From Saccoglossus kowalevskii (lineage: Eukaryota > Hemichordata > Enteropneusta > Harrimaniidae), in assembly GCF_000003605.2 (NCBI RefSeq), contig NW_003122410.1:40146-91014 (forward strand): a stretch of 50,869 nucleotides of DNA, given 5' to 3'. Shown here in pieces: positions 3,301 through 35,600 of the stretch. How positions within the stretch are numbered: the stretch's first letter is position 1; the number at the start of each line of letters is the position of its first letter. Below the pieces are notes generated by a model. That model saw only the letters and a list, made by a program, of their open reading frames with translations, searched no databases and was not told where the DNA came from. Made by a program: the position numbers and the translations under genes.

Positions 3301-3790
3301 GTTTGCTTACTAGCATTTATGAAAGAATTTTTCGACTGTGGCGAAATTATTTCAAACAAGCTGCGTATAATTATTCAAATAAAATCAATCGGGAATTTGA
3401 TTCAAATTATGATATAAATAATTCGGTCTAATCGAACAAATATCCATAATTGCTAATTTGCATAATTATGACTAATTATAAGCAGTGAATAAATGTAAAT
3501 TCGGGATTTGTTGATTTCATACGTACTTCCCTCAGTATAAATTAGATTATAAAATTTTACTTTGAGAAACACGTGTGTAATAGTCTTCTCAATAATCGAC
3601 GAATCTTTTCCAAAAAAACGATGAGTGTAAGTTGTCGTTTAAATATACAACTGTTTGGTTGTGTTCGTTTCATTAAACTATTTGTAATCTCTGAATAAAA
3701 TTAATTTTATTGACGGACTACAGCACATACAGAATTGGCGACGTTGTGATCGGCCCCATATACTCATTAACATCATAGAGAGCGATGCTG
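303..3790. other. intergenic, no gene recognised
   Basis: Scattered short open frames occur on both strands, all under about 105 codons, with no recognisable domain and no chain of phased splice sites. One hairpin is listed separately. The stretch around 2560-2880 is richer in G+C than its surroundings but shows no coding signal. Confidence 0.6.
1093..1140. repeat. perfect inverted repeat, 18-bp arms
   Basis: The arms at 1093-1110 and 1123-1140 are exact reverse complements around a 12-nt loop, so the transcript or single strand could form a strong hairpin. No gene is assigned to it. It may be the remnant of a small foldback element. Confidence 0.9.
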
Positions 3791-4013
3791 AATTGTCCGA
3801 GTTACGGACATCGAGTTAAGAAAACATCGAGTTACAAAATTTGAAAGTTAAACAAAACAAAAAATATATGTTGCCCGTAACTCGAAGTTTGGTTAACTGT
3901 TAATTGAACACCGAGTTACAATTTGGGCATGGTTTCACAAAAGTGGGCGTGGTTTCAAAAATATGGGCGTTACTCGATGTTTTCGTAACTCGATGTTTGT
4001 AACTCGAACAATT
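3791..4013. mobile_element. MITE-like element with ~45-bp terminal inverted repeats
   Basis: The left arm (3791-3835) and right arm (3969-4013) are reverse complements with only a few mismatches over about 45 bp. Each arm is itself built of copies of a roughly 10-bp word, CGAGTTAC or its variants, spaced about 15-20 bp apart. The interior is short and non-coding. This is the shape of a non-autonomous DNA transposon or foldback element. It lies about 250 bp upstream of the start codon of the protease-hemocyanin gene. No clear target-site duplication was seen. Confidence 0.75.
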
Positions 4014-4127
4014 GAACATCTCATTCGTTCTTGCATGCGTATCACAGTGGAGTTTCTGACAGAGGTCCACTAAAGACACCTACATACCAATTAAGAAAGA
4101 AGAAATTGAAATGATCATTTAATAATT

Positions 4128-4170
4128 GTGGTAATTCCCGGCTCACCTTGGGTAAGCCCGGAATTACCAC
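4128..4170. repeat. hairpin upstream of the protease-hemocyanin gene
   Basis: The 16-bp arms (4128-4143 and 4155-4170) pair with a single mismatch around an 11-nt loop. It sits about 45 bp 5' of a TATA-like sequence and 90 bp 5' of the proposed start codon. It could be a promoter-proximal structure or simply a foldback remnant. Confidence 0.7.
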
Positions 4171-4214
4171 GTGACCTAACCCACACGCCATCTGTTCATT
4201 TTTACAACACAGGT

Positions 4215-4222
4215 GATATAAA
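4215..4222 (+). promoter_or_regulatory. TATA-like box
   Basis: The sequence GATATAAA lies 37 bp before the proposed start codon at 4259. Position and sequence fit a core promoter with a very short 5' leader. No transcript evidence is available. Confidence 0.35.
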
Positions 4223-4258
4223 CACAGACGTTCCTAGAGTAGTCTCTCTGATAGTTTC

Positions 4259-7200
4259 ATGGCATCTGCGGACATCGCTATGCACGGTACGTGATTTCTT
4301 TTAATCAATATTTGTCTTTGTAATGTCTCTGCATTCTCAACGCTGATTGGCCGAATTAAAAAAAACTATATATCTTGCAAAACAATACTGAAAACACTTT
4401 TTTGGATGTATCTCTCTAACTTATAAATATTGTGTACAATGTTTTTAAATATACTGGCAGGTTTTGACAATTTGAAGAGAAAAAAAATACCCTTGATGAG
4501 ACCCTTTCTTTGCCGAGGTGCTTCACTTCTCCACCCAACTTAAGACACAATATTTTCTCTGATCCTAACTGATATATTTCATCAGCAGTGAGTGGCAGTT
4601 ACCGGGGTGATGAAGTAGACGGTAAGATACATGAAGTACGTATAGATGTAGACTCATTACGGGACTACTCGCCTAATCTTGGTGTCATCAGTGGAGAACA
4701 GACCCAGAATGGTCATGTGGTGGCGCACTTTCAGTCATCTTCCTTGAAGTAAGTATTAGTATCAGTTTCCTAGATTTCCATATTCGGCAGTGTTCCATTC
4801 GTATAGAGCCCGAGGCCGCTATCCCACATTTTTAAACATTGCACCCTTTGATTTTCGATGAACGATGTAGACCATTGCACTGATGAAAAATGCCATGCTA
4901 GCAATATAATATTCTAATCCAATCACAATTCTATTTTGTAAAGCCGTTAGGATGAACGCCACTGTCTAGTAAAAATGCAAACAATATACAAACACCATAA
5001 GCGTTTGATAATCTGCAGAGCGAACGGTCATCAAATAAATGAAAAAAAGTGGTAATAACAAAAGAGGTATTCAAACTTGTTTCCATGGAAACAAGAACTA
5101 CGTAGTTTTCTCATAGTGTTAAGCGGGCATTTCGAATTTCCAAAATGGTTGGCACTAAGGATCATAAGGATTGTCAGAGAGAGACATGTGCTAAACACGC
5201 ATATCCTTAAATGATTAAAACATAGACAATCGCGCCAGCAATGTGAATGGTACATAATTCAATGGTATATAATGATATCGCTTCATATACTGGAAAACGT
5301 CTTCCATGATACTGGTACTCCAAGTTGTGGTTTGCTGTGTGTACGCCCTCTTCAGTTCAGAGATACATTGTACAGGTTTAATTGAACATACCTTACCCTG
5401 GTTATTGTAATTCATATTTACGTTTAATATATATTCTCAGAAAGGAAGAAGAATATACTTATGTTGGTTTTTGTATTGTAATAAACGGAGATGGAGAGAA
5501 AACGCCGAGCAAGTTGACTGTAAGGTTAACTAAACAGTGCATGGAAAGCAGACGTTAATCTGCCCCAGGCAGGCATGGCATTCCAATGTATCAAGTACAG
5601 TGACGTAAGTAACAGTCTCAGAATAATTAAACATTTGTAGACGTGTGGGTGAGGTGAAACACGAAGTTGATCAGTACATACCCACAAATTATTATGAATA
5701 TGGACTCGTAATTCTCGAAACGAGAACGTCATTGAAATTGAACTGTTGATATCAGTTATTTCATAACAATAAATGTTGGCAGTATACATTGTAGGTTTGT
5801 TTAAAGATATTCATTCAGTTTATTCTGGAGTGGAAAATAGTGATTTTTTTGCCCAGTAGACGAAACACATTGAGTGACGTGCCATTTTACATGGGCATTT
5901 AGATATCCATTGTTTTTTTTAATTGTATATATTTACTTGGTTTTAGTTTAAATAAAAATACAAGTACAATGTACATGTATTTAAATGTCTTATATGATTT
6001 ACATGATGGTCACGAGATTTGACTATCGAAATGAGGACCATAGTTGACAGCAAAAACAAAATTTAACAAAAAGTTATACCTCATAACTGCATAACCTGTA
6101 CATTTGCTATGCGTTTCGTATGTCCAGAATTGAAGTTATAATTTAAGAGAATTAAAATAGTTATGCTCTGGTCATTTTTTATACTAGAAAGTAATTTAAA
6201 CTATTTAATAAAATTCTTTAAAAATGCTACTATAAATATTATTACATAGTCTATTAAGTAATGTAGGCATACAGTTCTTTACAGAAATATTTAATGTATA
6301 GTGACTATTAGTCTATTACGTTTCTAAGATCATCTTACCATTGAACTCTACTTAGGCTGAAGCGTCTGCCCTAGACGAAATTCTTGGCCGAAACGTCCGT
6401 CCACCACAAACTCGCCCACCCATCTAGCTACGGTTTCTAACTGAAGTACTGAAGTAAAAAGGTGTCAGTCTCGTAAAGCTAAATGTTGAAGCCCTCCATT
6501 GTTTCAATTCAGTAGCCAAGATAGATGCATGTTATTTCAACTATGATATGGAAAATAATAAAACATATTAAAATTAGAATGAATGAATGAGTAGAAATCG
6601 TATACACTTACATGGTTCCTACAGTTAGACAGCTTGCAGCCGAAAACAGTAAAACAAATCATAAAAACAAACTTCCCAGTGAAATTAATGTAGTATAATT
6701 ATAGTCCAATAATATAATCATACATTAAACAAATTTGATGTTACAACAGGGCTCTATGAAAAGATACGAGCCCCCTAACGCCCTCTATATATTTTCTATC
6801 CCACAGTCTTTTGCAAAATCCAATATGGAATTAACACATTTCTTCCCTATATACAAGTATAAGGACCATCAGTGGGTGGTTGTTCGATTTCGAACAAATA
6901 AATTAGTAAATAATTTCTAGCCTTTTATTCAGGTAATTAACTCCACTGACAAACACCACAAATCATCGAAAGTCGTAGCAAAATAACGCAGTTGAAAAAG
7001 TTTCTCTCATCGTCTGCACACATTGTCATGATTTGCTCTGTTCTCGCGCTGTATCACGTTCTACGATTACGTCAGTTCTATTTTTAGTAATATCTCATAA
7101 TCGTAAAACACGCTATACATAGTAATGCAAAGTACATGCCATATATTAGCCTGGAAAGTAGGCGTACGTGGCGCCCTGGACCCCACCAGCCACCTACGCA

Positions 7201-10200
7201 AACTTTTCAGGCTAGCCATATAAGTATTCAGTCTAATTTCCTTTAATAATTTAAATGTCTGTTCTAGTTTTTTCGTCATATCATGGTGGATATTGATTAC
7301 AGTCTAGACAATTTATTGTTGCCGATATTTGACACGACAAGCCATCCAAATCGATCAGTAGAGCTACCAGAGAGGCAACTATCAGTATTCACACCACTAG
7401 AAGACGCCGGTATCCAGGTTACATTTAACAAGAAGATGACTTCAAAGGTATTATGAGTTGACCATTGTTTTATGAAAGATGAGGGGGTAAATTTTCTGCC
7501 AAATTGTTACTTTGTTGTCTAGATGGTTTTAGACGGACTGTGTCGAGATCCTGCGTCGCTCTTCATCTCTCATTTTCCCAAGTGAATAACAACTTTTTAT
7601 AACAACTTTTTATATCCTATTTTATTTTCCTTTTTTTACTAAACATTTTTTGTAAGAAAAAAGGGAAATATCGTTGATTTGGGGTGCTCGAAATAATCTT
7701 AACTTGAAATCATCATGGTCTCCTCCAAACATGCTTGTTCCATAATTATTTTAACCATTGGTTCTAAAGTAAGTAAACAATTGGCAATTTAAAACTGCGT
7801 GTTTTAAAGAAAATATTTGTTCTACTTTCAGATTGAAGATCCCGATCCTTCAACCCCTTGGACGTTAAGTGAGCTCTATGAAGCTATGTTGTCCCATCAA
7901 GATAAGGACCCAACCACATGGAATGTATGGATACTTTTAGCACCGAAATACCGGGATCCTCGCACAGCGGGTTTAATGTTTGACCGAAAAAATAGGAAAG
8001 GTTTTGCTTTATTCATGGATCACAAGTGGTTCCGAGATATGAACCTGGCTGCAGGGAACGACAAGATAAAGAAAAAGAAAAAAGCAGCTGCAATTCGTAG
8101 ATTTGTACATACATTTGTCCACGAGATGGGGCATACGTTCAATCTACAACATGCCTGGGAAAAAGGAAAACCAGATTCTGTATCCTTCATGAATAGTGAT
8201 TATAGATATGACACAAGAAATGGCGTGGGTTCCTACTTCCGCGAATTCAAATTCATGTTCGATGAAGATGAAATTCGGTTCTTACGTCATGGTCGTCCTG
8301 AATGGGTACAGCCAGGTGTCTCGCCTTTTGGAAGAGATTTACCTGCAAGTAGCCTTCCCGCTGACCCTGATGACAGTGATCAGGTATCTAAACGATTAAC
8401 GCTTACACTCAAGCCCAGCAAAGAATCATACACTCAGATGGAAGTAGTTCGAGTTGAGTTAAAGCTGCAGAATCAGCATAAATACCCTGTGTATGTTGAA
8501 AGTAGTTTAGACCTAAGCCAGGAATGGGTTAGGGTGTTCATAACGTGTCCAGATGGTGGAGTTGTGCAAGCGGACACATTTGCCAATGGAGCCGTGGCTA
8601 ACCATATCAAAGCATTATACCCTGCTGGCTCAGAAGAAGGATCAGATAGAGTCAGTGAAGTTATACCATTGGTTTATGGAAAGGATGGTTTTTACTTCAA
8701 AGAACCGGGAAAATATTATATCAAAGCAATTTATACATTTGGCAGTTATTATGTGGTATCGGTGTTGGCAAGAATAAATATCATACCATTTGCAGGAGAG
8801 AATGCCATTGTGGACGCATTTTTTACTGAGGAAATTGGAGAGTACATTGCCATTGGCGGATCTGGTTCAGTAAGATACAGAAAGGCCAGAGAACTGATCA
8901 ACAGGCTTGCAACATCTGAAGAGCACAAGGTTTGGGCAGGAGAAATTGCAGTAATTGCTAGCGATAATCTATCTCACTCAACAAGAAAATCATTCACAAT
9001 AGACGGTACTGCAGTTAGTGTTAGCAGAGAAGATGGAGATGCTCTAGCTAAAGATGTTATTAAATCAACACAAATCATTGCTGATAATTTCCATATTGAT
9101 GGAACTCAGGCAGACAACATCATGTACCGGAAAACAGTTTTTCTTCGCGCCCAGGCATATTTGAAGTCACACTATAAGGTCAAAGCCCAAAGTGAAGTGA
9201 GGAGATTGATAGCTGATTTAAAATCACGTGGAGTTAAAGATTCTATTATCCAGGAAATGGAGAATGAATGGTTGATATTGCAAGGTGATCATGTTAATCT
9301 TTCATTAGATTCAGATCCCCAACGTAGGGCATTATGGAACATAATAACACCTACAGTAAAAGAGTTGCAACAAAGAGTGAAAGATATTCTCTTCTGGCAA
9401 GCAAATGATGACAGTCAGGAAGAAGATGAATGTGGTATAGCACATGGAAAAGTTTTTTCTGAGTTTGATGATGAACATCTTCAGAAATCTTCTAATGTGA
9501 TTGAGCAAATCTTTCTCAAGGCTGATGAATCATTTGACATAATCGACACCTTAGAATTTGTTGATTCTCTGCAGAAAAGCAGACGTTACAATCGTTATGT
9601 TATCCAGTATGCCTTTGAAATATTTCTCACTCATCATTCCCTTGCTCGTAGTAATAAATTGAAGGTTCCAGAATTTACTGATGCACCATCTGGTATGGAC
9701 ATGTCCACTCATGCAATGGTACCTCCTGTTGGTGAGCCAGAAGAGATATGGATGGATTATTGGAGGCATGATGCTGATTTTGTTGATCATCATCGTCATT
9801 GGCACAGAGTATACAGAGCACGAGGTATTCCTGGTACAGAAGCAGATCATCTGGATCGCCAGGGAGAATTGTTTGTATATATGCATAGACAAATGTTGGC
9901 GAGGTATAATGCGGAGAGAGAGGCATGGGGACTTGAACCTGTGGAACCTTGGGAATTTACAGACGTAGATCCTTTGGGTAGTGATGCTGGAGACGAGTTT
10001 CATAATAGTGACCGGAACTCTGGTATTCGTCCTCGGCCAGCTGGACTAAAGTGGTCCATGCCTGATATTCGACAGTTCCAAGTGTGGACTAACAACATCA
10101 GACGTGCATTCCGAGAAAATATTATTCAACCAAATCAAGGAGCACAGAGTGCTCTACAACAAATTAGACTAGGTGAAAACAATGACCTTGAAAATCCAAG

Positions 10201-12146
10201 TTCTAGCTCAGCGAATTGGGTTGGGCATATTGTCGAAGCCACATCAGGAACATTCTATGATAATTATGGCAGCCTTCACAACAGTGGACATGGTGTTTTT
10301 GGTCAACTTGGCCAACAGTCTGGTTTCAGCACATATATGGCCACAACTGCTCATGCTGTGCGAGATCATATTTTCTTTCGCTGGCATAAATTCATTGATA
10401 ACTTGGTTGAAGAGTATCACCAGACACAGAAAACCGAACTTGGTGTTGACTCGCCACCTGTTGTTATTGAAGAAAACGATATCATAATCAGCACATCAAC
10501 ACATCCTCCAGATGGATTCTCAGACTGGAATGAAAATCACTGGAGTAACAACAACTTTTCATCTGACCTTATAGAAACCACTCTAGATCTACCCCAGCGA
10601 CAATTTGAATGGGGAAAGTTATCTCACAATGCATTCAACTACCATCTACGAATCCGAAGACGTGGTGTCACTGGTCAGGAACTTCGTCTAACATTTAGAA
10701 TTTTTATTTGCCCAGCACAGCATGCTAATGACAGAAGACGGTGGATTGAAATGGATAAGTTCAGATATATTCTTGGTGCCATGGAAACTAACAGCATAAT
10801 CACAAGACAAGACGTGCATTCATCTGTCATTAGAAGATTCCCACAAGACGCTGCAGATGACCTTGAGGTACCACTTGCAAGAACTGTTAGTGGGTTTTGT
10901 GAATGTGGTTGGCCATACAACCTACTGTTACCAAGGGGAAAAGCAGATGGTGAGAAATATCTGATTGCAGTGTTGATATCTGACAACTCAATTGATTCTC
11001 TGAGAATTCGTTCTTCTTGTGGAAGTCTGAGCTACTGTGGAGCACGTGATAACAAATACCCTGATCGTCGGCAAATGGGATATCCTTTTGCAACACCAAT
11101 ATCAGTGAATGGCCAAGAGATGTCTGTCACTGAAACCATTAGCAGCTTGGACAATTTCACGTCATCAGCTTTTGTAATAAAAAACACTGATCGACGCTTT
11201 GGAGATAAAACCCATCATGAACCAACAAGTCATCTATCAGATATTCATACTGATATTGTAGCATGGAGGTCTCGTAGCCAACTAAGTCTACGCATAAGTG
11301 ATGAATTTCGCCTTAGCAGCTGGGACGGACGATTTCGATTATTAATTGATGGCAGACAGATTATAGATACCAATGCATTTGCAGAAACTGGATACATACG
11401 GTTAAGATTACAGGTGAATTGATATTTATATTCAACATATTTCATTGGCTTTTGGAAATATCAAATATATTACAAAAGCAAAATTAGTAATGGGTGAATT
11501 TGGAGAGTCGTTACTGTCTAAGAATACTCATTGTACATTTGTGTTACTGGTGAACTGTTTCTTTTATAATATAGAAAATCAATACCTCCAAGCAATATCA
11601 TATTCGATCAGTTTGATTAGTAACATTGAATAAAAGACAATTAACCATTGAAAGATGGGCTTAGGTATACTTTTTTTGTGATGATGCTATGCAATACAGT
11701 ATATTCAGTACGTTATTTATCTTTACTTAAAGATTTATTATTCTACCATTTTCTCTCTGCAGGGTCGAGGGCAGGGACGTGGTGTTTATGTCATCACAGG
11801 TGTTACCATGGCAACAAGACAAGGCCAGACTCTGAATACTTCTGGGGAAGTATATGAAATCACATTCAATGACGGAGAACCCAGTGCAACCATTCCCGAG
11901 ACTGGTATTCTGACAGACCCGATACAGATGACACTCATTCCACAGTCTGATTACTTTCTGACCTTTACCTTGCAGGCACCCGGAGTGTATCTCGTTGGTA
12001 ATGGCGACACATGTATGTGGAGAATTGCCAACCCTAGAGGGCGTGCACTAGATGAAATGAACTGGGACGTCGATGAGGTCAATGATCAGATTACACATAC
12101 TAGGCGAAACCTTTATGTAGTTGCAAGAATTCTCATAAACAATTAG
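4259..12146 (+). CDS. metzincin-like protease / arthropod-type hemocyanin-phenoloxidase fusion
   Basis: Five exons join in phase: 4259-4286, 4589-4748, 7303-7447, 7832-11413 and 11763-12146, giving 1432 residues and a TAG stop. No signal peptide is visible. Residues ~1-300 look like a zincin: HEMGHTFNLQH at 208-218 gives the HExxHxxxxxH zinc motif, with Asn where metzincins usually have Gly, and SFMN near Met231 resembles a Met-turn. A beta-rich Ig-like stretch follows, with EPGKYYIKAIY. A helical region (~610-750) resembles hemocyanin_N. The type-3 copper centre is complete: CuA H765, H769, H796 (context HHRHWH and GELFVYMH) and CuB H927, H931, H963 (LHNSGH and FFRWH). The C-terminal hemocyanin domain shows GWPYNLLLPRGK and KYPDRRQMGYPF. 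The last exon adds a ~127-residue unassigned tail. Likely activity is phenoloxidase or O2 binding plus proteolysis; this is inference. Exons 1-3 are less certain than exons 4-5. Confidence 0.85.
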
Positions 12147-13056: not shown

Positions 13057-16000
13057 ATTCAATAGACTTTGACATCATTGCCATAAGTATTCCCATGTCT
13101 ATTTTGGTCACTATGGTAGATATCTTTCTGTTCGGTAGATGGTCGGCCCAATCCACTACCATCTGGCCTCTGCTGTATGTACCATTGAGTTCTACCGTGG
13201 CATGGCGCTGTTCCATCTCCAGTATTGCCCTTCTATCTATCGCCACCATCATTGCAACCGCATCAGGCACATTCCAACCATAATTTAAAAACAGATCTTT
13301 ACTCTGGAAAATAAATGATTCCAACTATTGCAACAACATTAATACATTATTATCTGAAAACATCAAACTAAATGTAACTTCCCTGGCGATGTTTATTTCA
13401 TAAAACTACCTAAACTATGATGGTATATACATATACCATCATAGTTTAGCTAGTATAAATACTAGATTTCAAATTGTTTCCGGGGAGTATGCCCCGGACT
13501 CCCTTGGTAAGGTAACGCCTTTGGCGAGAGGGATGGTGAGGAGAAGTGCCCCCATGCAAAATGACATGCCGCCGCCTCTGCTTTCTACACTGCCTCTTTA
13601 TTACTAGTATATTATTGTAATTTGTCTTATTCAAAACATGTATATTTTGTTACAATTCCTATTTAGAACGTTGGGTCAAATATCATTTTTCTGTAGTCAC
13701 ATTTTAAAAATACATAAACTGTTTTGTCCTTTTATAGATTACGGCAGCCATCTTGAATATTCAAATTTCCCCAGGGGTACAAAAAGTGTATAAAATACAT
13801 CAAACAAATTAGGTAAACCATTATTATAGATTCGGTGGAACCGGGGTTAGAAACTGGTCTAATCTGCAAATATCGATTATTTCAAACAAAAAGGGCAAAG
13901 AGTATTTGGTTTTCATCGCACTTTACACTGAAACAACCACTGCCTGTTTGAGTGTTTTGGCAATGATGGCTACTGATATGGAGGGGATACCATTGGATAG
14001 TGGGAATATGGTTTACGTCTGCCTTAGAATCATCTGGGGTGCTGCTTTCGATGATTCTAAGTCAAAAACTCGTCGAAGTGGCCAATTATCTATTTAACTT
14101 CTGCAGCTGTAATAAAAAAATCGTTTGGTAATCCCTCTCCTCGTGACCTGGTACCATCATCGTCCTAAAAAGAGGGTATTTGTTATGGTTATAGCAGGGG
14201 TACCGGGACCTCGTTTAATGTATCAATTTACTCCAAAAAATGTTTGGGGGTTATGTATGGATGACGATTGTACCAGCACACCTGGTAGTGCTCGGGACAA
14301 AATGATACTTGCCTTGAATTCATAATCGTGTATACGTTTCCGGGTAATTATTTTCAAGAACTCTGCTTTCCTTGTCTTGGTTTCTAAATATTGTTTATAC
14401 CATGTCTACAAATGATAAAGTTGTTGCGTCTCAGAAACGAAGAATAATGGTACACTTTTTAATTTAAAATACATCACAATGTTGGAATAAATATGAATCT
14501 TGAATGTGTTTTTTTTGTAAATAAGTATCATTAATATTGAGCGTGATTGTGCGTATTTATATAGATTGTGAGTTGTATAACTGTATATGGAATGCAGGGA
14601 ATTCGAATTACGGACATAAATCGAATTGCGCATGCCCACACCCCTTTGATACGGACACCCTAAAGTAGCATATATTTACATGATGATTATTTTCACAGAT
14701 GTTTTAACATCGCTGGACATATCAGCACGGTATTATATTTAAGTGATTTTAATTTGTGACTCTTGTGGATTCGTTCCAAGTTGGGTTTGCCCGACCCCGA
14801 CACAACTGGTCCAAGCGACTTCATGACACTATAAATAGTTCAGGAACTTCAAATAAAAAAAAATCCACTGTCAAGTCGTAGGGTATTTTGGTGACTATTT
14901 CGGTGATTATTCGATGTCTAGCCACGAAAATATCAGGTGAGTCGTTGAAACCCACAAATTAATATATTCTGCAAATGAGAGTTTAACACTCACCCATTCA
15001 ATAGCGCTCTTAATTGATAACTCCCAACCATTTATATAGACTGGACAATCGAAGTCATTTAGTACAATCTGAGCAGCTTCGGGATCTGCATAAAAGTTGA
15101 ACTCGGCAGAAATCGTTATATTACCTCTCCCTGAATGAAACATATTTGTACATATTTCGTTACTGTGACATACAATACGTACATTTAATTAATAGGCTCG
15201 TACAAGAATAGTAGAAAGACCAAATAGTCTACAGACCATTATATACAACTCGAGTAATGAGAATTATCTGAATTCCCATATTCATCTTATATGTACCATA
15301 TTTCTATTACATACTATTGTGATAGACTACATCTGCATTCAACCAGATAGAAGGGTCCAATCGGTCCATATAGGATATAAAAGTGATATTCACCTGCAGT
15401 ATTGCCTCCCATTAAAATGAGCTCTTTGATATTTTTCGAGAATTCTGAGTCCAATCTAGCTGCGAGTGCCAAGTTTGTTAATGGACCCAGTGCAACAAGC
15501 GTTAATTGGCCAGGATGTTGTCTGACTAAGTCTATTAATGCATTCACGCCGTGCTTGGACTCGATATGGCTGTCATCCGGGGCATTTGGGTCTGGAGTGT
15601 CTCCCAAGCCATCATCACCATGAACACCAGTTGAGTCAAAAGCAGAGTGTCGCGGAAGGATGTATTTTTCAGCACCCCGATGAACCGGTATCTAAAATAA
15701 TACAACAGTCGCAATTATAATATCGATGAAAAGTAAACTCATTTATTATTTATTTCTGACAATTAAATAACTTAAAGGCAATTCTACGAGAAATGTGTAA
15801 AACAATGAATACAAATATCGGAGAAACGTGTCATTGGGGTCTATGTAAACCGCTGCTAAAATGCGTGCATTCTTTGAGGTATCCTCGTAATAACCTCATA
15901 TTATTATTATAGCAGAGAATGCCCGAATTACATTGCTGGGATGGACACATTGAAATTATGAATTTTTACGATTTTTTAAATTTAACACGATTGGAACTAT

Positions 16001-16800
16001 TTCGGGATAATTGGATTCGCTTAAAATGTGCTACTGGTTTGTTTTCACAAAAATATTTTATTTGTTCGTTTTAGATTTTTTTCTGATAATTTCTTGTATT
16101 GATATCAGAAATGAGGAAATTAAGAACAATACTACCCTACAGTAGCACATTTTAAACGAATCTAATTATCCTGAAATAGTTCCAATTGTTTTATTTGTAT
16201 AATACATTATAAATATTAATAAAGCGCTACAAATAATGCATATTTTATCTGTTAAAGTCGTTCCCCGCGATCGTGTATGCATAATAAAATAACATATATA
16301 TAAACCAACCAACCAACCAACCAACCAACCAACCAACCAACCAAACAAACAAACAAACAAACAAACAAACAGACAAATAAATAAATAAAGTCGCATTCTG
16401 TCCAAAGCCGTTGATCCGTCGCCTATCTCGATATGATTTGTTGTTGCTTACAATTGAAATTTTATGTCTCAATTTTATTTCTCAAATACGAAAACAATTT
16501 ATGATATATTATTTTTTCCCAATATTTATAAAAGTTTCGTGGCGAACCACTTCCGTAGTAGACGCCCTCCTCCATTCACCAAGACCTCACCAGATATAAA
16601 CTTACCTTGCCAAGTTTACCGCAGACTTTCAATATTCGTAGAACATTAAGGCACACTTGATTTGTACTGCTGATATTTCCCAGCACGCATGTTATTGCTA
16701 ATATTTTCACATGAGGCTGTGACAAAGCAATCATAATTGCCTGTGCATCGTCAATGCCAGCATCGCAGTCTATCACCATTAATAATTTCCCATCACCCAT
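13055..16800 (-). CDS. inosine/uridine-preferring nucleoside hydrolase
   Basis: Four exons were read on the minus strand: 16800-16606 (start ATG), 15691-15394, 15130-14994 and 13303-13055 (TAA stop). They have good GT-AG ends and compatible phases. The product hydrolyses the N-glycosidic bond of ribonucleosides to free base and ribose, probably in the cytosol. Exon 1 has the family's calcium-binding start, DCDAGIDDAQAI. Exon 2 has LVALGPLTNLALA and LILMGGN. Exon 3 has AEFNFYADPEAA. Exon 4 has PDAVAMMVAIDR and ELNGTYSRGQMVVDW. The joined model is 292 residues. Family members usually carry about 25-40 further residues between the ends of exons 3 and 4 (a WxFxxW...TxKAxF-like segment), so one phase-0 exon is probably missing between 13303 and 14994. 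I could not find it. No sign of pseudogenisation is seen. Confidence 0.9.
13410..13449. repeat. perfect 40-bp palindrome, 19-bp arms
   Basis: The arms at 13410-13428 and 13431-13449 are exact reverse complements separated by 2 nt. It lies in the last intron of the nucleoside hydrolase. It would cruciform or snap back efficiently and may be the junction of an inverted duplication. Confidence 0.92.
13830..14325 (+). pseudogene. protein-like frames of unknown identity, probably broken
   Basis: One open frame runs from about 13830 to 14097 and contains KEYLVFIALYTETTTACL and GIPLDSGNMVYVCL. A second, shifted frame runs 14125-14325 and contains RVFVMVIAGVPGPRL and NVWGLCMDDDCTSTPG. Their composition is protein-like, and both run antisense to the nucleoside hydrolase inside its last intron. 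I do not recognise the family. A frameshift and stop between them suggest a decayed insertion, but they could be two exons or chance. Confidence 0.3.
15863..15906. mobile_element. solo end of a MITE family
   Basis: About 42 bp match, with some mismatches, the right end of the MITE at 28301-28399 and its flank (core GGTATCCTCRTAATAACC). Only this end is present here. It lies in an intron of the nucleoside hydrolase. Confidence 0.6.
15990..16186. mobile_element. MITE with 47-bp terminal inverted repeats
   Basis: The arms at 15990-16036 and 16140-16186 are reverse complements over 47 bp with roughly four or five mismatches. The ~103-bp interior is AT-rich and non-coding. It is inserted in the first intron of the nucleoside hydrolase. 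No clear target-site duplication was identified. Confidence 0.8.
16304..16389. repeat. compound (CCAA)n-(AAAC)n-(AAAT)n microsatellite
   Basis: Tetranucleotide runs follow one another: CCAA, then CAAA, then TAAA. They generate repetitive minus-strand frames rich in Cys-Leu-Phe-Val and Gly-Trp-Leu-Val that are not genes. Confidence 0.95.
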
Positions 16801-17309
16801 TGCGACAAATCACCTGTCAATAAACACGTCTGAAGGAGTGCCGTGAAGCAGTAGAGAGCGGAATGACTGAATAAACAGATTATAAGATGGGAGAATTATA
16901 TTATTTTACTGTTATAACGCCAATCACATTGCGATATATAGTCGAACCGCTGTAAAGCTCTGCCTTAATAGCGACCGTAATGAAACATTCCCGACCGAAT
17001 ATAAAGTAACAAATCTTGTATAATCTTGTATAAAATTATATATCTGAGTGACTGTTGTGAAATTAAAGGGATTAGATGGGAAAGTGGTTCATGGCGATGA
17101 ATTGCACTAATTATACCGTGTTTGCTAATTGGACGTAAAAAACGGGTTTCGATGATTCCTATTTAGAAATTTACTAAAGTAGATTGATGGTAATTTTAGA
17201 CGCAAGTCCAGAATCAATATTTGTAATTAATCCGTTCAATAACCGCTGTTTCCAAACGTGAGGGTTTTGATTTTAATAACCATTTACAACCTGTACACGA
17301 TCGAACAAT
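16801..17309. other. 5' flank of the nucleoside hydrolase, with repeat remnant
   Basis: No gene was seen. Around 16970-17070 the sequence resembles 21105-21200 (shared words include AATATAAAG and GAGTGACT), so it carries a diverged copy of the anonymous repeat described at 19198 and 21306. Confidence 0.45.
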
Positions 17310-23677: not shown

Positions 23678-24676
23678 TCAAAACAATTTTGCATGAGGGC
23701 ATAGGTGGAAAGCAATACCTGGAAAGTTCCAAGCAGAGCTGATGGGAGAAATCTTTCTGCAACAATGTGATGCCGAGACTGTTCTATCACCTATGCACAG
23801 GGATCCCTGAGGTCGTTCGGCTGGGTCAGTAACCAAAGCCTGACCCGCTACCACGGCCCATCCTAAAAAGACCCTCCTCAATAGATTGGGTATCTCTTAG
23901 GTAGTAGTGGTAAAGACATTTTGAGTTCTCCAGAAGCTTGCCCTCAGCACATGCTCAAGGGGGCACCTGACGCATGAGCCAATTAGATAGCAATCACAGA
24001 CTTCATGTGCTCATACTTGGTGTCTCTGTAGACCCTGTGTCAAGGAAGCCAACATGGTCACAGTGATCCACCGGGCCAATCGGTTGTGGATTGTGTCCTG
24101 GGATTTGATTCTTGGCAAGGAACCTGATTTGTGTTTATAGCACCGCATCCGAAAAGGACAGGTCCCTAGTTCAGACCAACACCTACCTGAGGCGAGGGCT
24201 AGTAGGAAGACTGTTTTCCCATTTGAGTGATGCTGATTGGAGAGACTCAAAGGGTGGTCTGCTTAGAGCGGACACTACAACTGACAAGTCCCAATTGGAT
24301 GGTTCCCTCATTCGAGATCTAGGCCTCTGATTACGGGAAGTAGTAAACAGTCTCCTAATAATAGTAAGACAACCAGCTAGCCTTGTCCCCAGAAAATTCT
24401 CAATGGTAGGTGACAAGGCTAACATATAGCCAATGATCGCTGAATGGGACAAGCCCATTTTGTCAAACAGATGGACATAACATCAGCTACCTGGCCAACA
24501 GAGGGACAGCATAGATCGATCTCCCTTCCACTACACCAATCAGTATACGCTCGCCATTTCAAGTAGTAGGCTGGGTTGGTGGGATTCCTGTTCACCCTGT
24601 CCAGGATGTTGGCAGCCCGGTCCAACAATAGTAGAATCCAGGCCTTGCTTGGCCCATTGGGCGCCATCCGCGTCAA
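23678..24676 (-). pseudogene. DIRS-like tyrosine recombinase, broken
   Basis: The core-binding part (24676-24419) contains YLKWRAYTDWCSGREID. The catalytic part has LALASGRCWSEL with the first active-site Arg near 24184. An H-x-x-R box (HCCR) lies at 23767-23756 within ASHCCRKISPISSAW. These fall in at least three frames, so the gene is dead. The terminal catalytic Tyr was not located. Confidence 0.7.
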
Positions 24677-24861
24677 AGTGTAGGTGCGCTCTAGAAATGG
24701 AGCCGCCGTTAAAGGGCGTCCACTTGACTGTTCCTCACCCCTGGAAGGTGGTGTGCAGCTAGCTCCACATTGTATTCCAGGTACTAAAGGATAATTTGCA
24801 CTGCTAGGACTGACAACGATGGGGATCTAGTCCCCCCTCTTGTTGTTATAGAAGACCATCG

Positions 24862-25083
24862 CTATGTTGTCCGTGTGAAGCAAGACTCTGCGGCCTCGAA
24901 CTGGGTAGAAAGTGTATCAGTGCTAAGTGCACTGCTTTCATTTTTAGCCAGTTGATATGGCGGTACTGAATCCAATGCAGGGGCCATATTCCTTGGGTGT
25001 TCGTTCAATAGGTGCGCTTCCCAACCTGTGAGGGAGGCATCCGTTACCAGAGTCATACCCATGGTGAGTGGGTCCAGAAGCAC
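24862..25083 (-). pseudogene. DIRS-like RNase H fragment
   Basis: VTDASLTGWEAHL is the start of the retroelement RNase H fold, with the first catalytic Asp. The block sits between the reverse transcriptase and recombinase remnants, in the order expected for DIRS elements. Later catalytic residues are hard to follow because of frame breaks. Confidence 0.65.
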
Positions 25084-25149
25084 CCCCTGCCCGAGGTTGG
25101 CAGTAGCTGACCATCAGGGCAAAGCACTTGCTTGGTCCGAAAGTGTTAC

Positions 25150-25835
25150 TCACCTCTCCAGTTCCCATAGGTGAGCCCGGTGTTGTGACAAAGTGCGTTG
25201 TACTGGGCAGCTGTGTAACACAGCCTGGGGAGCTACCCTGCGAACCGAGGTCATCATTCCGATGATCTGCATTAGTTCTCGAAGTGACACAGAGGGAATG
25301 CCGACTAGGGGCTCGGCTAGGTCACTTATTGCTAGGCAACAGGCCTGCGATGGCCGTACCAAGCCCACCTCTCTGTCGAACTCCATGCTCAGGAACAGCA
25401 ACTGTTGGCAGAGGATGCTTGATTTACTAGGAAGCCCAATTGGTGCAGTAAATCCTGTGTTAGCCTTACTGTTTGGCAACCAGTCGTCTAGGTATGGGTT
25501 GATGTGTACTGACACCCGGCTCAGCATTAGCACCACCTGTTTCCACATCTGGTCAACACATATGGCGCCATGCAAAACACAAAGGGTAGCACCCTGTACC
25601 CAATTACTTGGCCCAAAGGAGGGTATCGAGGGTGTCGCTGACTCGCTGGGTGTATCAATATGTGCGGGTAAGCATCACTCAAGTCTAGCGAGGCTAACCA
25701 GTGGAAACAGAGCACAGAGAATAAAACGGTGCTCAGTGTTTCCAGGAAACATATACTGATTTAGACTGCTGAAGTCCAGAACTGGACGCAGCCATCTGTA
25801 GTCTTTGGAACCGCCAACACTTGCGAGTAGAATCT
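25150..25835 (-). pseudogene. DIRS-like reverse transcriptase, broken
   Basis: On the minus strand, FYSQVLAVPKTTDG (fingers) comes first, then LASLDLSDAYPHILIHP with a catalytic Asp, then GYRVLPFVFCMAPYVLT, then YLDD at 25494-25483 in NPYLDDWLP. The spacing fits a DIRS/Gypsy-type RT. Frame changes between blocks show it is inactive. Confidence 0.75.
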
Positions 25836-27246
25836 TGGACTTAATGCCGGGACCTCTCTTGTGTCTTGTGCTCTGTAAGCAAACTGTCTACCTCCTGTTG
25901 GATTGCTTTCGCTTTGCGGGAATCCCCTGTTAGCGCCCGAACAGGGGGATGTTGCCAGGGGGTGGAGATCTTGTAACAGTGTATCACCACCTGGAAAGTC
26001 CAGGGGTCGGTTACGTGCTGCCTCCCATCTGGAATACACTGGCGCAATCGATGTATGTGGGTATATGAGATATGTGGGTTTGGCGGTTCTACATGAGGAG
26101 TGATCTCTCCTCCGTCGAGGTGAGGTTCCGCAAGGCCTGTAGTCGATAGGTTCAGACTCTACTTCCCCCCGAACATATGCACACCCCCCTTGATGCAAGT
26201 GGAAGCATCAAACTTGCTTCCCCTGCGAGCTGGGTGGGCGACCACCCGAGGAAAAGGGGGGACCATCACTTCTTCTGGGGTGCGCGTCACCACACTACCC
26301 TCTCCCGGAAGAGTCAGGACACTTGCCAGTCGGTGCTGACTGTGGTCATTACGCTTTCTGAGCTTAGGGTCTTTTCTGCTTGCCCTAGGCAGAAGTCAAA
26401 CTGGCTCGCGGGTCCCACCTGTACCAACTGGTCGGAGGGACCCCGAAGCACAGAGACTGCTGCTTTCCTACTGAACCAAATAATTTGTGGTTCCGGGGTC
26501 GGGGAGGAACCGAAGGATCCGGTCGGTGTGAAATTTGGCTCCAGACTCTGCTGGCTCCTGTCTCAAACACTGCATCAATTAGGTAGCGCTTGTTCCAGAA
26601 GAAAGGGTTAAGCATGTAATTGCTCCACCTTCAGGACTTATACCTCTACTCCGCAGGAGACCAATGACACCGTCTGAGCGTTCCCACTGCATCCAGTACT
26701 CTGCCAGACTAGGAGAGTTATGATATCAGTGTTGTTTTGAATCCCGCCATCTGGATCCCAGAAGCGAGAGCACTACAGAGAGTGACAGCTTCAGGATTGA
26801 TGGTGGGGATCGAACATCAGGTCACAGCATGGCTCACGGAGTCGCCCGAGGTTGCACCCACCTAATCAGATATCCTTCTGATGGCCGGGCAGGTCCCCTC
26901 TGGGGGTGTCTGCGGGTCCTGGAAAGGAGAGTGACCTGTAGTGGAGGCAGGACTTAGAAAAAAATTTATCCCTTGTCACTGGGTCCGACAGACAATCCCT
27001 GGGTGACAGAGTGCAAGGGGAGGGTACAAAACCGCATGTCCTGCCCTGCTTGGTCCCCTCGAAATCGGAGGACTGACTGCCAGGTCTCTTGTTGGCTGCC
27101 TGTGGACTAGGTACCCGGTAACACCAAACTGTGCCCCACCTGTTTCCCAAACAATGGGGAGAACGAGGAAGGAAGGAACATGAATATTGCTTGCTGGTGT
27201 GTTTCTTCCAGCTTGCCAAAATAAGGGGCAACTGCGGTGGAGGCAA
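25836..27246 (-). pseudogene. probable DIRS gag-like region
   Basis: Proline-, serine- and arginine-rich minus-strand frames precede the reverse transcriptase inside the element's inverted repeats. Sequence similarity to a specific gag was not recognised; the call rests on position. RT N-terminal residues such as TGDSRKAKAIQQEVDSLL lie at its 3' end. Confidence 0.4.
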
Positions 27247-27535
27247 CCTGCTCCCCCTGCATTTAGTCTACCAGATCTGCAAGGGACACAATTTGTCTCG
27301 GCAGGTCCTCAACCAAAGCAAGAATCTCATAGACAAACCTGTTGCCGTGCGAGCATGGATCTACAGTGGGACCCGCAACAGGCCCCATAGGAGTAAAAAC
27401 CTCCAGGGGCACAGCCTCGCCGTTGCGGTACGACCACCACCTGCAGAAGCAGACCATGAGGAAGCCCTACGATCAGCAGGGGGGCCCTGCAGGGGGGGGG
27501 CATTTTGACTGACTGGAGTTTATGGTGGGTAATTG

Positions 27536-28979
27536 AACTTATTGAATTGTGATTGGCCCAGGCATGTGTAAGATACAGGTCCGAACGCATGCACTTGCGG
27601 ATGCACAAGGTCAATCCACGAGTCCCTGAATGGGGACTAATAAAGATGTAAAATCCTTAAAGCACTATGGCTGGATTAAACACAACAATAAAAAGGAAAA
27701 TCATATAAAAGATCCCTATATGATATAATGATGGCATCTTCCTCCTCTTTAAAGTGGGGGTCAAGCTCAATAGACTTGGAAGAGAATAAAACAGGATATT
27801 ATTATTTATACAAAGCGTCACAGACGTCAAATTGCAATGCCACGAGCATGTGGTCGACCTGCAGTGCGATTTTCAAAACAAGTTTTGAATGGTTTGTCAG
27901 GTTGCATGAGTGAGAATGTTATGTGGTTGGCGGAGTTGTGTTATATTCAGTCAAAACTATCCCACAATGCACTGTAATTTGAATTTCTGATATGGTCTAT
28001 ATAGTGCAAGATCAATGTAGACAAATATCTAAATGGTAGTATTAAATATAAATGCAGATTAAACCTAGCAATAACTTTCATTATTATACATCTGTCACTG
28101 TAACGCCATAAGTTACAGAGTGCCGTAATTTTGTGGTATTTGCTGTATTAGGATTAATAATAATAATAAAAACAAACATGGCAGCCCCCGGGGTATGACT
28201 GGTCCCCCATACAAAGAAGTTTTGCTCAATCTGTTCTAAACTTTTTGTATTTTGGTACTCCCATGCTGTATTCCTGGGAGGAAAACATGTATAATAATAA
28301 GGTTATTATGAGGATACCGAAAATTATGTACTCGGACAGTACGCTGCATGTCAGTTGATACTATCTACGTGCATACTTTTCGGTATCCTCATAATAACCT
28401 CATATTATGCAAATGACAGTGATAAAAAAAAAAGCCTATATGTACAAAACTTGCGTATATTGTGTAATGAACACTGCAGTGTTTGCAGCTAAAACATTAT
28501 TTTTATTTCACGGTAAATCAGACATTAATATGTCTATCAAGATGAAACATCCTATATAATGATTGCTGGATTCACGAATATGACAGGTGTACACTATTAT
28601 TTTGGTGTATGATGTGCAAGTGAAATATTGATTGATACAACTATTGCCACTTTAACAAAAATGCTCATTTTTATGAAACGGCCAACAGAAAATTGTTTTA
28701 CATTAGTGTCATACAACAATTAGTGTGACCTGATATAATTTACACAGGAAAAAAATTGAACAGTATTAAAACAATATGGCGGCAGGCAGAGCATTATGAA
28801 TCCAATAAGCACAAACATAATTGCATGCCCCCATTCAATGATGTTTAATAGACAAAGTTTGAATTCAATCAGTCACAGATTAACTTAAATCCATTTCCAA
28901 AATATATAACCTGATGCTTGATGTATTTAAACTATGTAGGTCAAGGCATGTTTGAGATATTGCTTTAAGGGATTTAACT
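27536..28979. other. gene-free spacer
   Basis: Right flank of the DIRS-like element. It holds one MITE (28301-28399) and otherwise AT-rich sequence with no coding signal on either strand. Confidence 0.5.
28301..28399. mobile_element. short MITE with 23-bp perfect terminal inverted repeats
   Basis: Arms at 28301-28323 and 28377-28399 are exact reverse complements (outer end GGTTATTATGAGGATACC) around a 53-bp non-coding core. A diverged single end of the same family is at 15863-15906. Confidence 0.85.
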
Positions 28980-32600: not shown

Positions 32601-35600
32601 GTTACCTTTGGCATATCAGTTGCTATTTTTTTTGTTACTTCAGTTTCTACTTTGTTCTCAGCTGAAGACACAAAGCCATCAGGTTTATCCCACTGTGAAA
32701 CTAGCAAATAAACATGATATTAAAAAGTTGCTTTGAAATGATATAACTGTATGAGTCTGATTAGAACATCTAACACAAAATATGTAGGATTAGCACATGG
32801 CCAACAGCCCTCGACCAATCAGAGTCGTGATAAAGTATGGTTCTATTTCACCACAAATTCATTTATATCACAGCTGTTAATTCACAAGTTTGATTGCTGT
32901 CAAAACGTCATCATTTGATTGGCTCATGCAAATCTTTTCTTGGGCTGATTGGCCAGCCGGTTAGATCACGCCCCTCGGTGACTATGAGAATTAGAAGTTT
33001 GCAAGTGGATCAAAATGTGAAAACATATTGGGTGAACAAGTTATACAGGACATAGGTAAAAAAAAGTATATTTAAATAGCTTCTACAATTCAGGGCAGCA
33101 GACCTGAACTCCTGGAGGACCCTAGCAGCAGTCCTATGTGCCAGTCAGGGCGCTAAGAGTCCTAAGTGAAGTGACAATTCAAGTAGTATTCTGCATAACA
33201 CTACTTACCTCCTGTCACACTGTTCCAGTAATATGTGTCCCCTTCTGGACTCACACCTTCTAGCCATGCTGCTGATGAATCTGCTTGGACTACGACAGGT
33301 AACTGAGGTTGTTGTTCTTGGGGGATTTCTTCAGCATCTTTGGCTTCTACACAACAAACAAATAAACATAGCAGTAATAGAGACAGTTATCAATTACTTT
33401 GTAATTTCCGCTAAAATTACCTACTAAATTGTATCACCAATGTTTTCAGATGGTGATACGATCACTAATAAGTATTTTTGATAGTCGCTAGTTGATCAAT
33501 TTTGAAAAAAAAATCTGAAAAATAATGGATGTGCCTCAGTATGCCAACAGGTAGAATCCCATATTCTCGGTTTCAACAGAATTTGCAAGTACAACTTGGC
33601 AATAATGCTCTGCTTTTAGACTATTTTCGAGACAAATATGGTTGCCAGTCGGCTATTTTTTATCTGAAGAAGAAGAAATCTGGGGCATATATCATGTATC
33701 AACCATGTACCAAGATTGGGAGAAACTGGCCCAGGAACTTGTGAGGGACACCAAACCAAAATATGTTCAGCTTCAACTTTTTTTAATAAGTGTAATGATC
33801 TTATGAGATACCAAATGGACATACGTGGAGTGAACTGTTGCTAGGATATTGGCAGCCATTGTGTAATTAATATTTTCATCGCCAATACAGTGTCAAAATC
33901 CAAATACAGTCAAACACGTGTATAGCAACCACCTGAGGGACTTCATTGAAAAGGTCTTTATAAACAGGTGGTCTTCATATGAAATATCATGTGATGAAGT
34001 GAATCTACATTTATGTAATACAATAGCATTCCTATACCATGTTATGAAGTGAATGTAAAGATCTCTATAACATGTGAATAAAGAAAAAAAGTTGTTTTAT
34101 AAATGAAATGCTAATTATTATTATAAGAATTTGCAAACATATTGCTGAAAGTGTGGTCACATAACACAGGTGGTTTTTATACATATGTTTCTCATGCGTC
34201 ATTCCTTGGGACTGCCAAAAAAGTGGTCTTTCTATAGAGGTGGTTATTAACAAAGGTCTGACTGAACTTAACCCTGTGACAAAACAAAAGAAACAAATTC
34301 TACCTTTGATTTTCTTTTGTATTAAAGCTGTTTTATACTGAGGGGCTAAAGTCGGGTCATTTGCAACATCTTTTTCAAATGCCTTCAGTGCAGCCTGAAA
34401 ATAATATAGAAAATAAGCACTGTCAGGTAAATATTATATGACATTCATGCTGGTTTCAGTGTTTCTGTATTCACACATACATGTAACCACTCATGTTTTA
34501 TTTTCAATATTATATTGGTAATAAAGTACAAATTTCATCTTAATTTCATCTTAGCAGGTATTGGAATGTGTGGTTCCTGGAAATCAAACTGGAAGATTTT
34601 TTCTATCACTGTGAATGTATCAAAAGGTGGACATTGGGACTTGGGAAGGAGAATTGTCCAGTCTATACCTCCTCCATTGCTTGAAGATCACTCTTGAACT
34701 TGGCATCTTGCTTCACTTTTTTGGCTCCTTTCTTCTGAACATCTACTATCTTTTTCTGTACATTTTCTTTGTGGCGCTTTCCCCTTTCATGAAAGTCGAC
34801 ACTCTGTGAAGGAACGGATACAATATATAGCAAACCAGTTTTAAAGATTAATTTTAAATTACTAACAGGATTATTACCATTTGATATTTATAAACATTCA
34901 TAAATATTTAATATAAAAACACAGGAAAACAAGTCATTGTCAATGACACGTCCCCGTTCTGTTCATATTTGAGTGAGATATACATTCAAAGCAGATCATG
35001 ACCGAAATGCACCTGTATATGTACAACACATTGTACTAAATCTGAACAAAATCCATCCATGCATGACTGAGATCCGGTTCCGGAATTGTGAAAATACGTG
35101 ATTTTGATGCATTTTCAGCCTTAAAATGGCCATCATTCAGCTATTGTTAAGCGGATCATGAAACAAATGCACATATCTATTTGTGACATGATGTACCTTG
35201 TGTGTGTGAAGTTTGAACTCGATCAATCCAGGCATGTCTCAGATACAGATCCAGATCTGAATTCTTTAAAACAAAATGGCGGCCAGTCGGCCATTTCGAA
35301 CTTGATCCGAAAAAAAAAATGACGTGCATCAAGGTCCTATTATGTTTAATGTATGTACCAAATTTCAACAAAATCTGTCCATGCATAACTGAGATCCAGG
35401 TCCGGAATGGTGAAAATGTGCGATTTCAATGCATTTTCGGCCTTAAAGCGGCCGCCATTTGGCTATCGTTAATGAGATCATGAAACAAATGTACATACAT
35501 ATTTGTGACATGATGTACCTTGTGTGTGTGAAGTTTGAACTCGATCAATCCAGGCATGTCTCAGATATGGATCCAGAACTAAATTCTTTAAAACAAAATG

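Follow-up and report, generated by a model that had tools for sequence, protein, structure and literature searches.

Can one animal protein hold both a zinc-protease-like unit and a copper centre of the hemocyanin/phenoloxidase type, and where would such a combination come from? The question is raised by a gene in a stretch of 50,869 nucleotides from the acorn worm Saccoglossus kowalevskii (contig NW_003122410.1, positions 40,146 to 91,014), which we analyzed at its full length and refer to as the window. This gene of a hemichordate, a deuterostome, joins a zinc-protease-like part to a hemocyanin/phenoloxidase-type copper part on one predicted chain. We consider it about an even bet (roughly 0.5) that a bacterial protease–copper gene pair was transferred into the animal and then fused.

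The fusion can be read from a single large exon at 7832–11413 of the plus strand, which is bounded by an acceptor AG at 7830–7831 and a donor GT at 11414–11415. Its 1,194 codons (3,582 bp) are uninterrupted and carry the protease motif followed by the copper domain. The exon is part of a plus-strand frame that is open over 1,201 codons (7817–11422), for which our own arithmetic, with 61 of 64 codons being sense at each step, gives a chance probability of about 1e-25. As both metal sites sit inside this exon, the fusion is independent of splice-site guesses and of upstream exons. A sequence-only reading, made earlier without database searches, had noticed the motif HEMGHTFNLQH with a candidate Met-turn, six copper histidines with the CuA spacing of arthropod proteins, and the C-terminal KYPDRRQMGYPF, and had proposed that the two centres are on one chain. 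These observations held: the motif occupies exon residues 97–107, with the Met of SFMN 13 residues further on, H2 and H3 of CuA are 27 residues apart as in Limulus, and KYPDRRQMGYPF lies in the C-terminal part in the same open frame as both metal sites.

By its profiles and its six histidines, the copper half reads as a beta-subclass type-3 copper protein of the hemocyanin superfamily. Pfam placed Hemocyanin_M at exon residues 637–863 (E 1.7e-23, 83.7 bits against a cut-off of 20.8) and Hemocyanin_C at residues 934–1096 (E 1.4e-22, 80.7 bits against 26.4). Hemocyanin_N (PF03722), which the sequence-only reading had also named, gave no match up to an E value of 10 in this search, where the HMMER filters drop most weak matches. 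The histidines are residues 654, 658, and 685 of CuA and 816, 820, and 852 of CuB, with the arrangement H-x3-H ... H in both sites, and they aligned with those of scorpion and Limulus hemocyanins; the distance from H5 to H6 is 32 residues compared to 36 in Limulus. A phmmer search against PDB sequences gave 16 matches up to an E value of 1, the best being the hemocyanin chain 3ixv (2.2e-48), which we take to be from a scorpion, and the matches also included insect phenoloxidases and the fungal AsqI. Four cysteines of the C-terminal domain align with arthropod cysteines.

The protease half belongs to an unnamed bacterial family, and this bacterial link is strong. A scan of contigs from bacterial and archaeal genomes, with the protease half as query, gave 435 candidate stretches, 170 of which encoded a relative; the best 80 of these 170 were taken as loci, and all 80 are bacterial by record title and come from at least ten phyla. 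The pattern HExGHxxNxxH was present in all 29 bacterial relatives checked, and a Met-turn of the form [ST][WFY]M[NP] followed within 40 residues in each of them, matched at the sequence level by SFMN in the window protein. Of 33 residues that are near-invariant among the bacteria, the window protein retains 28, including the three zinc-binding histidines, the glutamate, and the methionine. The classical metzincin motif, HExxHxxGxxH/D, has a glycine where HEMGHTFNLQH has an asparagine; the three histidines and the glutamate are in place, and the asparagine is shared with all 29 relatives. Matches to Reprolysin_5, Reprolysin_4, and Reprolysin_3 were weak and below cut-off (E 0.004–0.07; 17.9 bits for Reprolysin_5 against a cut-off of 27), and the archaemetzincin profile scored 16.3 bits against a cut-off of 145, so that none of the known metzincin profiles reached its cut-off for the window protein.

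A structure prediction for a bacterial relative from a Spirochaetaceae metagenome-assembled genome (MAG), L013, with 744 amino acids, had a mean predicted local distance difference test score (pLDDT) of 81. It showed an N-terminal beta domain (residues 62–204), a strand-helix-strands-helix unit with the zinc motif, an immunoglobulin-like (Ig-like) domain (452–582), and helices (588–743). The order around HExxH, strand-helix-three strands-helix, fits the metzincin topology. A Foldseek search with this model named no zincin among the 50 PDB matches listed of 1,830 (E up to 10); the matches listed, one of them at E ≤0.001, were mostly to beta domains of complement, macroglobulin, and antibody type, and those to complement and antibody-type domains were weak. 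The window exon itself gave an AlphaFold model of 1,194 residues with a mean pLDDT of 53, in which the Ig-like and helical parts were resolved and the zincin part moderately. The metzincin label is partly supported, by the motif, the Met-turn, and the predicted order of elements: like reprolysin, matrixin, serralysin, and archaemetzincin, the family has HExxHxxxxxH, a Met-turn, and this strand and helix order in the bacterial model, but the window protein differs from them in the asparagine and the sub-threshold profiles.

The bacterial relatives also provide a possible precedent for the pairing of the two halves. In a tblastn search of the large exon against 72,556 plasmid records, seven records matched, two Rhizobium indicum plasmids with the copper half and the other five with the protease half. 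The best 80 protease relatives and six loci from plasmids made up a set of 86 bacterial loci, of which some are short or truncated where a contig ends. Among the open reading frames (ORFs) of these 86 loci, the copper half occurred in two (Rhizobium L002 and Pseudonocardia asaccharolytica L048), and a fused protease–copper chain was not found. In Pseudonocardia, the protease stop codon ends at 11467 and the hemocyanin ATG follows at 11470, 2 bp apart and in the order of the animal fusion, and the downstream frame matched Hemocyanin_M (1.6e-26) and Hemocyanin_C (4e-22) in Pfam. This adjacency suggests that such a pair of bacterial genes was acquired by the animal and then fused. The unnamed zincin family (for example, L013) is colinear with the N-terminal half of the animal protein, with a beta domain, HExGHxxNxxH, a Met-turn, an Ig-like domain, and a helical repeat, and differs from it in that no copper domain shares its chain among these ORFs. 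The Pseudonocardia protease frame (L048, 8147–11464) has, in addition, an M28 peptidase domain ahead of the zincin.

Bacterial proteins of the beta-subclass hemocyanin type were seen at three places: on a Rhizobium indicum plasmid (L002, 5716–7617, annotated as 'tyrosinase family protein'), in Pseudonocardia (L048, 11470–13512), and, as a split gene, in a Microvirga MAG (L097, 9006–11011). They share 29–34% BLAST identity with the window protein across the copper and C-terminal domains, and both intact ones (Rhizobium and Pseudonocardia) have the six histidines; unlike the animal protein, they are stand-alone genes, and the CuA site of Pseudonocardia has a long insert, with 96 residues from H2 to H3. 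Such proteins are rare in bacteria. Starting from 76 of the 80 loci, one of which was not covered, the other four lying in genomes already named, we searched for Hemocyanin_M in 74 genomes and found it in two of these holders of the protease family, Pseudonocardia and Microvirga; one run of this search was without any match, controls included. In samples of 345, 337, 200, 199, and 397 genomes drawn around the two positive genomes, which may overlap, only the genome at the centre was over the cut-off each time (one further match in the sample of 337 was below it). Two scans of viral contigs gave no relatives, phages gave no match, and PADLOC gave no match for the four proteins tested.

With these relatives at hand, the gene can be described along the window as follows.

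4259–4286, plus strand: putative first coding exon (MASADIAMH), read by eye from an ATG and a GTACGT donor in phase with the next exon; uncertain
4586–4748, plus strand: exon in which the N-terminal beta domain starts (VSGSYRGDEVDGKIHEVRIDVDS...), from tblastn with bacterial relatives
5441 to about 5604, plus strand: exon for the central part of the N-terminal beta domain, containing an apparent frame break, read by eye without BLAST support of its own
7268–7447, plus strand: exon that completes the N-terminal beta domain and leads into the protease unit, from tblastn; acceptor by eye, donor in phase 0
7832–11413, plus strand: large exon whose single frame holds the protease, the Ig-like and helical parts, and the hemocyanin unit, from the ORF, Pfam, and splice reading
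8120–8152, plus strand: zinc-binding motif HEMGHTFNLQH of the HExGHxxNxxH pattern, with the Met-turn codon at 8189–8191
8390–8785, plus strand: Ig-like beta domain, strands at model residues 189–318 with mostly high pLDDT
8801–9286, plus strand: mostly helical region resembling tetratricopeptide repeats (TPR), helices between model residues 324 and 483
9449–9724, plus strand: start of the hemocyanin unit (FSEF...THH), aligning with Rhizobium L002 and Pseudonocardia L048
9725–10405, plus strand: Hemocyanin_M by Pfam, with CuA His codons at 9791, 9803, and 9884 and CuB His codons at 10277, 10289, and 10385
10616–11104, plus strand: Hemocyanin_C with CxCGW and KYPDRRQMGYPF, from Pfam and the PDB alignment
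11105–11413, plus strand: first part of a C-terminal extension of no recognised kind, without a PDB sequence match for 11129–11413
11763–12146, plus strand: last exon with the stop codon and the rest of the extension, with a CAG acceptor in phase 0 and open to the stop

The gene begins further upstream than the start at 7832 given by the sequence-only reading, because bacterial relatives of the N-terminal domain match 4588–4707 (43% identity over 44 columns with Microvirga L014, E 2.9e-4) and 7271–7441 (Cellulomonas L015, E 1e-6) in a tblastn search confined to 3500–7900, with similar matches in another search. The proposed interval of 7832–12146 holds the large exon and the last exon and misses the upstream exons from about 4259. 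The accompanying model of 1432 residues could not be rebuilt; exons 7283–7447, 7832–11413, and 11763–12146 together give 1,376 amino acids. The gene probably starts at the ATG at 4259, and no hydrophobic or signal-peptide-like stretch was seen by eye at the modelled start, MASADIAMHAVSG, which lies in a putative exon. Within the third exon, a resemblance to the bacterial N-terminal domain is seen by eye in each of two stretches that are read in different frames, and this apparent frame break would be either an assembly error or a real lesion. TPR profiles matched weakly in a few of the 29 bacterial relatives. At the other end of the gene, the part of the C-terminal extension in the last exon (11808–12143) was without a match in the Pfam search. 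The extension resembles a small bacterial family by eye, and we dropped the idea of a third fused gene because 107 of 2,000 shuffles (1,621 scored) equalled the real stretch and a profile search gave nothing.

For the protease half, we calculated an unrooted tree of 37 rows, of which 36 were drawn from the set of 86 bacterial loci and the window was the sole non-bacterial one. With a support of 98/96, the window fell into one group with Desulfobacterales, Spirochaetaceae, Microvirga, Rhizobium, Cellulomonas, and Agromyces, separate from the remaining 30 rows. As the tree is unrooted and has no second non-bacterial row, it indicates the nearest bacteria and not an origin of the window protein among them. 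In the copper tree, which has seven rows, is likewise unrooted, and has arthropods as its only other eukaryotes, the window grouped with Pseudonocardia and Microvirga (84/93), and the three arthropod rows stood apart (100/99), so that the copper half falls outside the arthropod group. BLAST identities of the copper half were 33.9% over 316 columns with the Microvirga fragment, which covers part of the domain, 29.9% with Pseudonocardia, 28.6% with Rhizobium, and 29.1–30.2% with arthropods. The combination of an arthropod-type copper protein with a metzincin, as it had been described from the letters, therefore stands with respect to the beta-subclass copper centre, the motif, and the Met-turn; as a statement of origin, 'arthropod-type' is unsupported because both halves have bacterial relatives, and the metzincin assignment lacks a profile over its cut-off.

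On the favoured reading, a bacterial gene pair would have entered the animal genome, the two frames would have become one, and introns would have been added at both ends. Transfer, and a bacterial origin of the copper half, appear likely; in Microvirga, one of the two genomes positive for Hemocyanin_M, the protease relative is a near one and the copper protein falls into one group with that of the window. The gene is integrated in host DNA, as it lies on a 977-kb contig with inferred splice sites at both gene ends and with neighbouring exons that match IU_nuc_hydro and zf-FCS over the cut-off and WW below it, and its composition is host-like (GC 0.41, and 0.32 at third codon positions). We infer transfer over shared descent, as well as the introns, the N-terminal exons, and the function. 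Several observations weigh against this reading. Protease and copper genes are adjacent in one of the 86 bacterial loci, and in the Microvirga MAG the protease gene lies on a 64-kb contig and the copper gene, which is split into two frames, on a separate 17-kb contig. The window could sit as an outgroup in the unrooted trees, its nesting inside bacteria being unproved, and its branches are long (2.46 in the protease tree and 1.95 in the copper tree). The copper tree is small, its support is 84/93 with arthropods as the sole other eukaryotes, and in a rerun that left out the Microvirga fragment, nothing was firm except the arthropod split with its inner fork. Copper-half BLAST scores were alike for arthropods (160–182 bits) and bacteria (172–179 bits), the best single match being scorpion. 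Among animal genomes, the searches covered that of Saccoglossus alone. Nearly all of the copper domains in the exon model have a pLDDT below 50; the alignment behind the model held one copper-half relative. Finally, with the frame break in exon 3, the full-length protein might not be made.

The similar scores and the small, unrooted copper tree would also suit a mixed origin, in which the copper half is an old, vertically inherited animal beta-subclass protein and only the protease half is bacterial, the two having been fused in the hemichordate line. The beta-subclass has been reported in arthropods, urochordates, a poriferan, fungi, amoebozoans, and a hemichordate in the accessible text of a 2013 survey (PMC3658974). 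We regard this origin as possible but rather unlikely, in view of the gene order in Pseudonocardia, which is that of the fusion, and of the grouping of the copper half with Pseudonocardia and Microvirga rather than with arthropods, Microvirga having a near protease relative as well. An early fused or paired protease–phenoloxidase that was widely lost, with bacteria and the hemichordate as survivors, or that bacteria acquired from eukaryotes, seems improbable to us on the genomes covered, those of bacteria and archaea and of the host. The breadth of phyla among the best 80 of the 170 protease relatives, a weak match of the Microvirga protein on a plasmid of Halocatena, presumably an archaeon, and trees compatible with the window as an outgroup are in line with such shared descent, but the window is not equidistant from all bacteria, as it joins six of the 36 bacterial protease rows. 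We also doubt that the gene is decaying, with a real break in exon 3 and a locus that no longer yields the full protein: the break, seen by eye within 5441–5604, could stem from a misassembly, the large exon adds 1,194 codons free of stops, 28 of the 33 near-invariant residues persist, and the ATG at 7283 would yield the protein of 1,376 amino acids without most of the first domain. A further reading takes the copper half for a carrier of oxygen, or for an enzyme that uses zinc and does not oxidise, with the protease half as independent cargo. It draws on AsqI, which shows that the fold can lose its copper chemistry (accessible text of PMC6053404), and on the name 'hemocyanin' that the 2013 survey gives to the hemichordate protein. 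This reading is improbable as well: two of the site B ligands have been lost in AsqI, whereas all six histidines are kept here, and a gene found once, with no signal peptide seen in its putative model, would be a poor candidate for a blood carrier.

How the gene relates to described systems can be judged from the literature in part. The accessible text of PMC3658974 places a 'Hemichordate hemocyanin' in the beta-subclass, lists it in a table as lacking disulfides, and reports that the bacterial genomes examined there yielded the alpha-subclass alone; the words 'metalloprotease' and 'fusion' do not occur in its main text. This protein is plausibly the present gene or an orthologue, because a search of the host genome (572 Mb in 4,830 contigs, the window being on the 977-kb contig) gave one match for Hemocyanin_M, as it did for the window protein and for the bacterial protease relative; six tyrosinase-family matches lie elsewhere. 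As far as that text goes, the window protein resembles the surveyed beta-subclass proteins in having Hemocyanin_M and Hemocyanin_C over the cut-off, and six histidines in beta-subclass spacing; its putative start, read by eye, would also suit the lack of a signal peptide. It differs from them in the protease unit of several hundred residues in front, the C-terminal extension behind, the missing Hemocyanin_N match, and a likely affinity to bacteria, for which the survey had the alpha-subclass only. In agreement with the sequence-only reading, which knew of no such protein, no description of a protease–hemocyanin fusion was found in the literature on the gene, the superfamily, and transfer into hemichordates, a scope that excluded most subscription papers and all supplements; the accessible part of a paper on hemichordate genomes (PMC11175523) does not mention hemocyanin, phenoloxidase, or horizontal gene transfer.

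Returning to the fused bacterial pair, its product would most likely be an enzyme of defence or wounding that stays inside the cell and is normally silent. Its copper half would oxidise phenols to quinones for melanin or cross-linking. The protease half would control the copper half in cis or act either on a partner or on an invader, the Ig-like and helical parts serving as sensor or scaffold; in this way, proteolysis and the oxidation of phenols would be coupled in one molecule. Self-processing is possible. In the prophenoloxidase cascade of arthropods, separate serine proteases cut the proenzyme. The fusion resembles that cascade (see also PMC4700666) in pairing a protease with a hemocyanin-type phenoloxidase, but here one chain holds the zinc-protease-like unit as well, and an activation site was not found. 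We offer only tentatively, and as a rather doubtful proposal, that a captured bacterial protease–phenoloxidase operon became a one-molecule melanisation switch, a phenoloxidase with a built-in controlling protease, where arthropods use a cascade of several proteins.

The bacterial gene context led us to propose an intracellular enzyme in which the protease unit may control the phenoloxidase or act beside it. Caspase-domain genes lie about 2 kb from the bacterial protease gene in Agromyces (L016, 4958–7252, minus strand, with VMAP-C) and in Pseudonocardia (L048, 4286–5953, plus strand); a BLAST search of the fetched loci found no others beyond these two query genes, except for one weak match in the Agromyces locus itself. 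A LodA-like gene is near the protease gene of Rhizobium L004, and the Rhizobium hemocyanin gene has a metallo-beta-lactamase-fold gene as a neighbour and an S8 peptidase gene two genes away. In this Pfam look at ten neighbouring proteins, five were without a match, and the neighbours point weakly to stress or conflict systems that join proteolysis and phenol oxidation. A small unnamed family of about 100 residues was seen in 19 of 87 bacterial loci (L014 11651–12031, L013 8616–9083, L004 7519–7884, and 16 more), next to or near the protease gene in the loci inspected; the one member tested had no Pfam match.

Elsewhere in the window, exons of an inosine-uridine nucleoside hydrolase (15317–16809, minus strand), of a WW-like domain (33204–33386, minus strand, below the cut-off), and of an FCS zinc finger (47558–47872, plus strand) were recognised. 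A G+C-rich island at 24001–28000 (0.51 compared to 0.32–0.42 elsewhere) has many open frames, two of them without a Pfam match, and may be a mobile element. In the same assembly, a 17-kb contig (C4830) resembles a mitochondrial genome in which cox1 is opposite in strand to most other recognised protein genes. It has an in-frame TGA in cox1, a tRNA-Lys with the anticodon TTT, and no AGG in recognised genes, with one in an open frame ahead of cox3. By what we assume to be the usual residues, ATA stands at Ile sites, AAA at Lys sites, and AGA at a Ser site of cytochrome b. The accessible text of PMC3121625 gives the Saccoglossus kowalevskii mitochondrial code as AUA Ile, AAA Lys, AGA Ser, and AGG unassigned, with a tRNA-Lys UUU, and states that Echinodermata differ in AAA and Chordata in AUA. 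The contig therefore points to a hemichordate host, most likely Saccoglossus or a close relative.

The gene thus represents an animal gene linked to a bacterial gene pair, for which we found no description. Some bacteria hold hemocyanin-type copper proteins of the beta-subclass, unlike the bacterial set of the 2013 survey, and this reopens the question of the superfamily's origin. If it is true that both enzymes cooperate, the acorn-worm protein would be a minimal protease–phenoloxidase system that could be tested as one protein.

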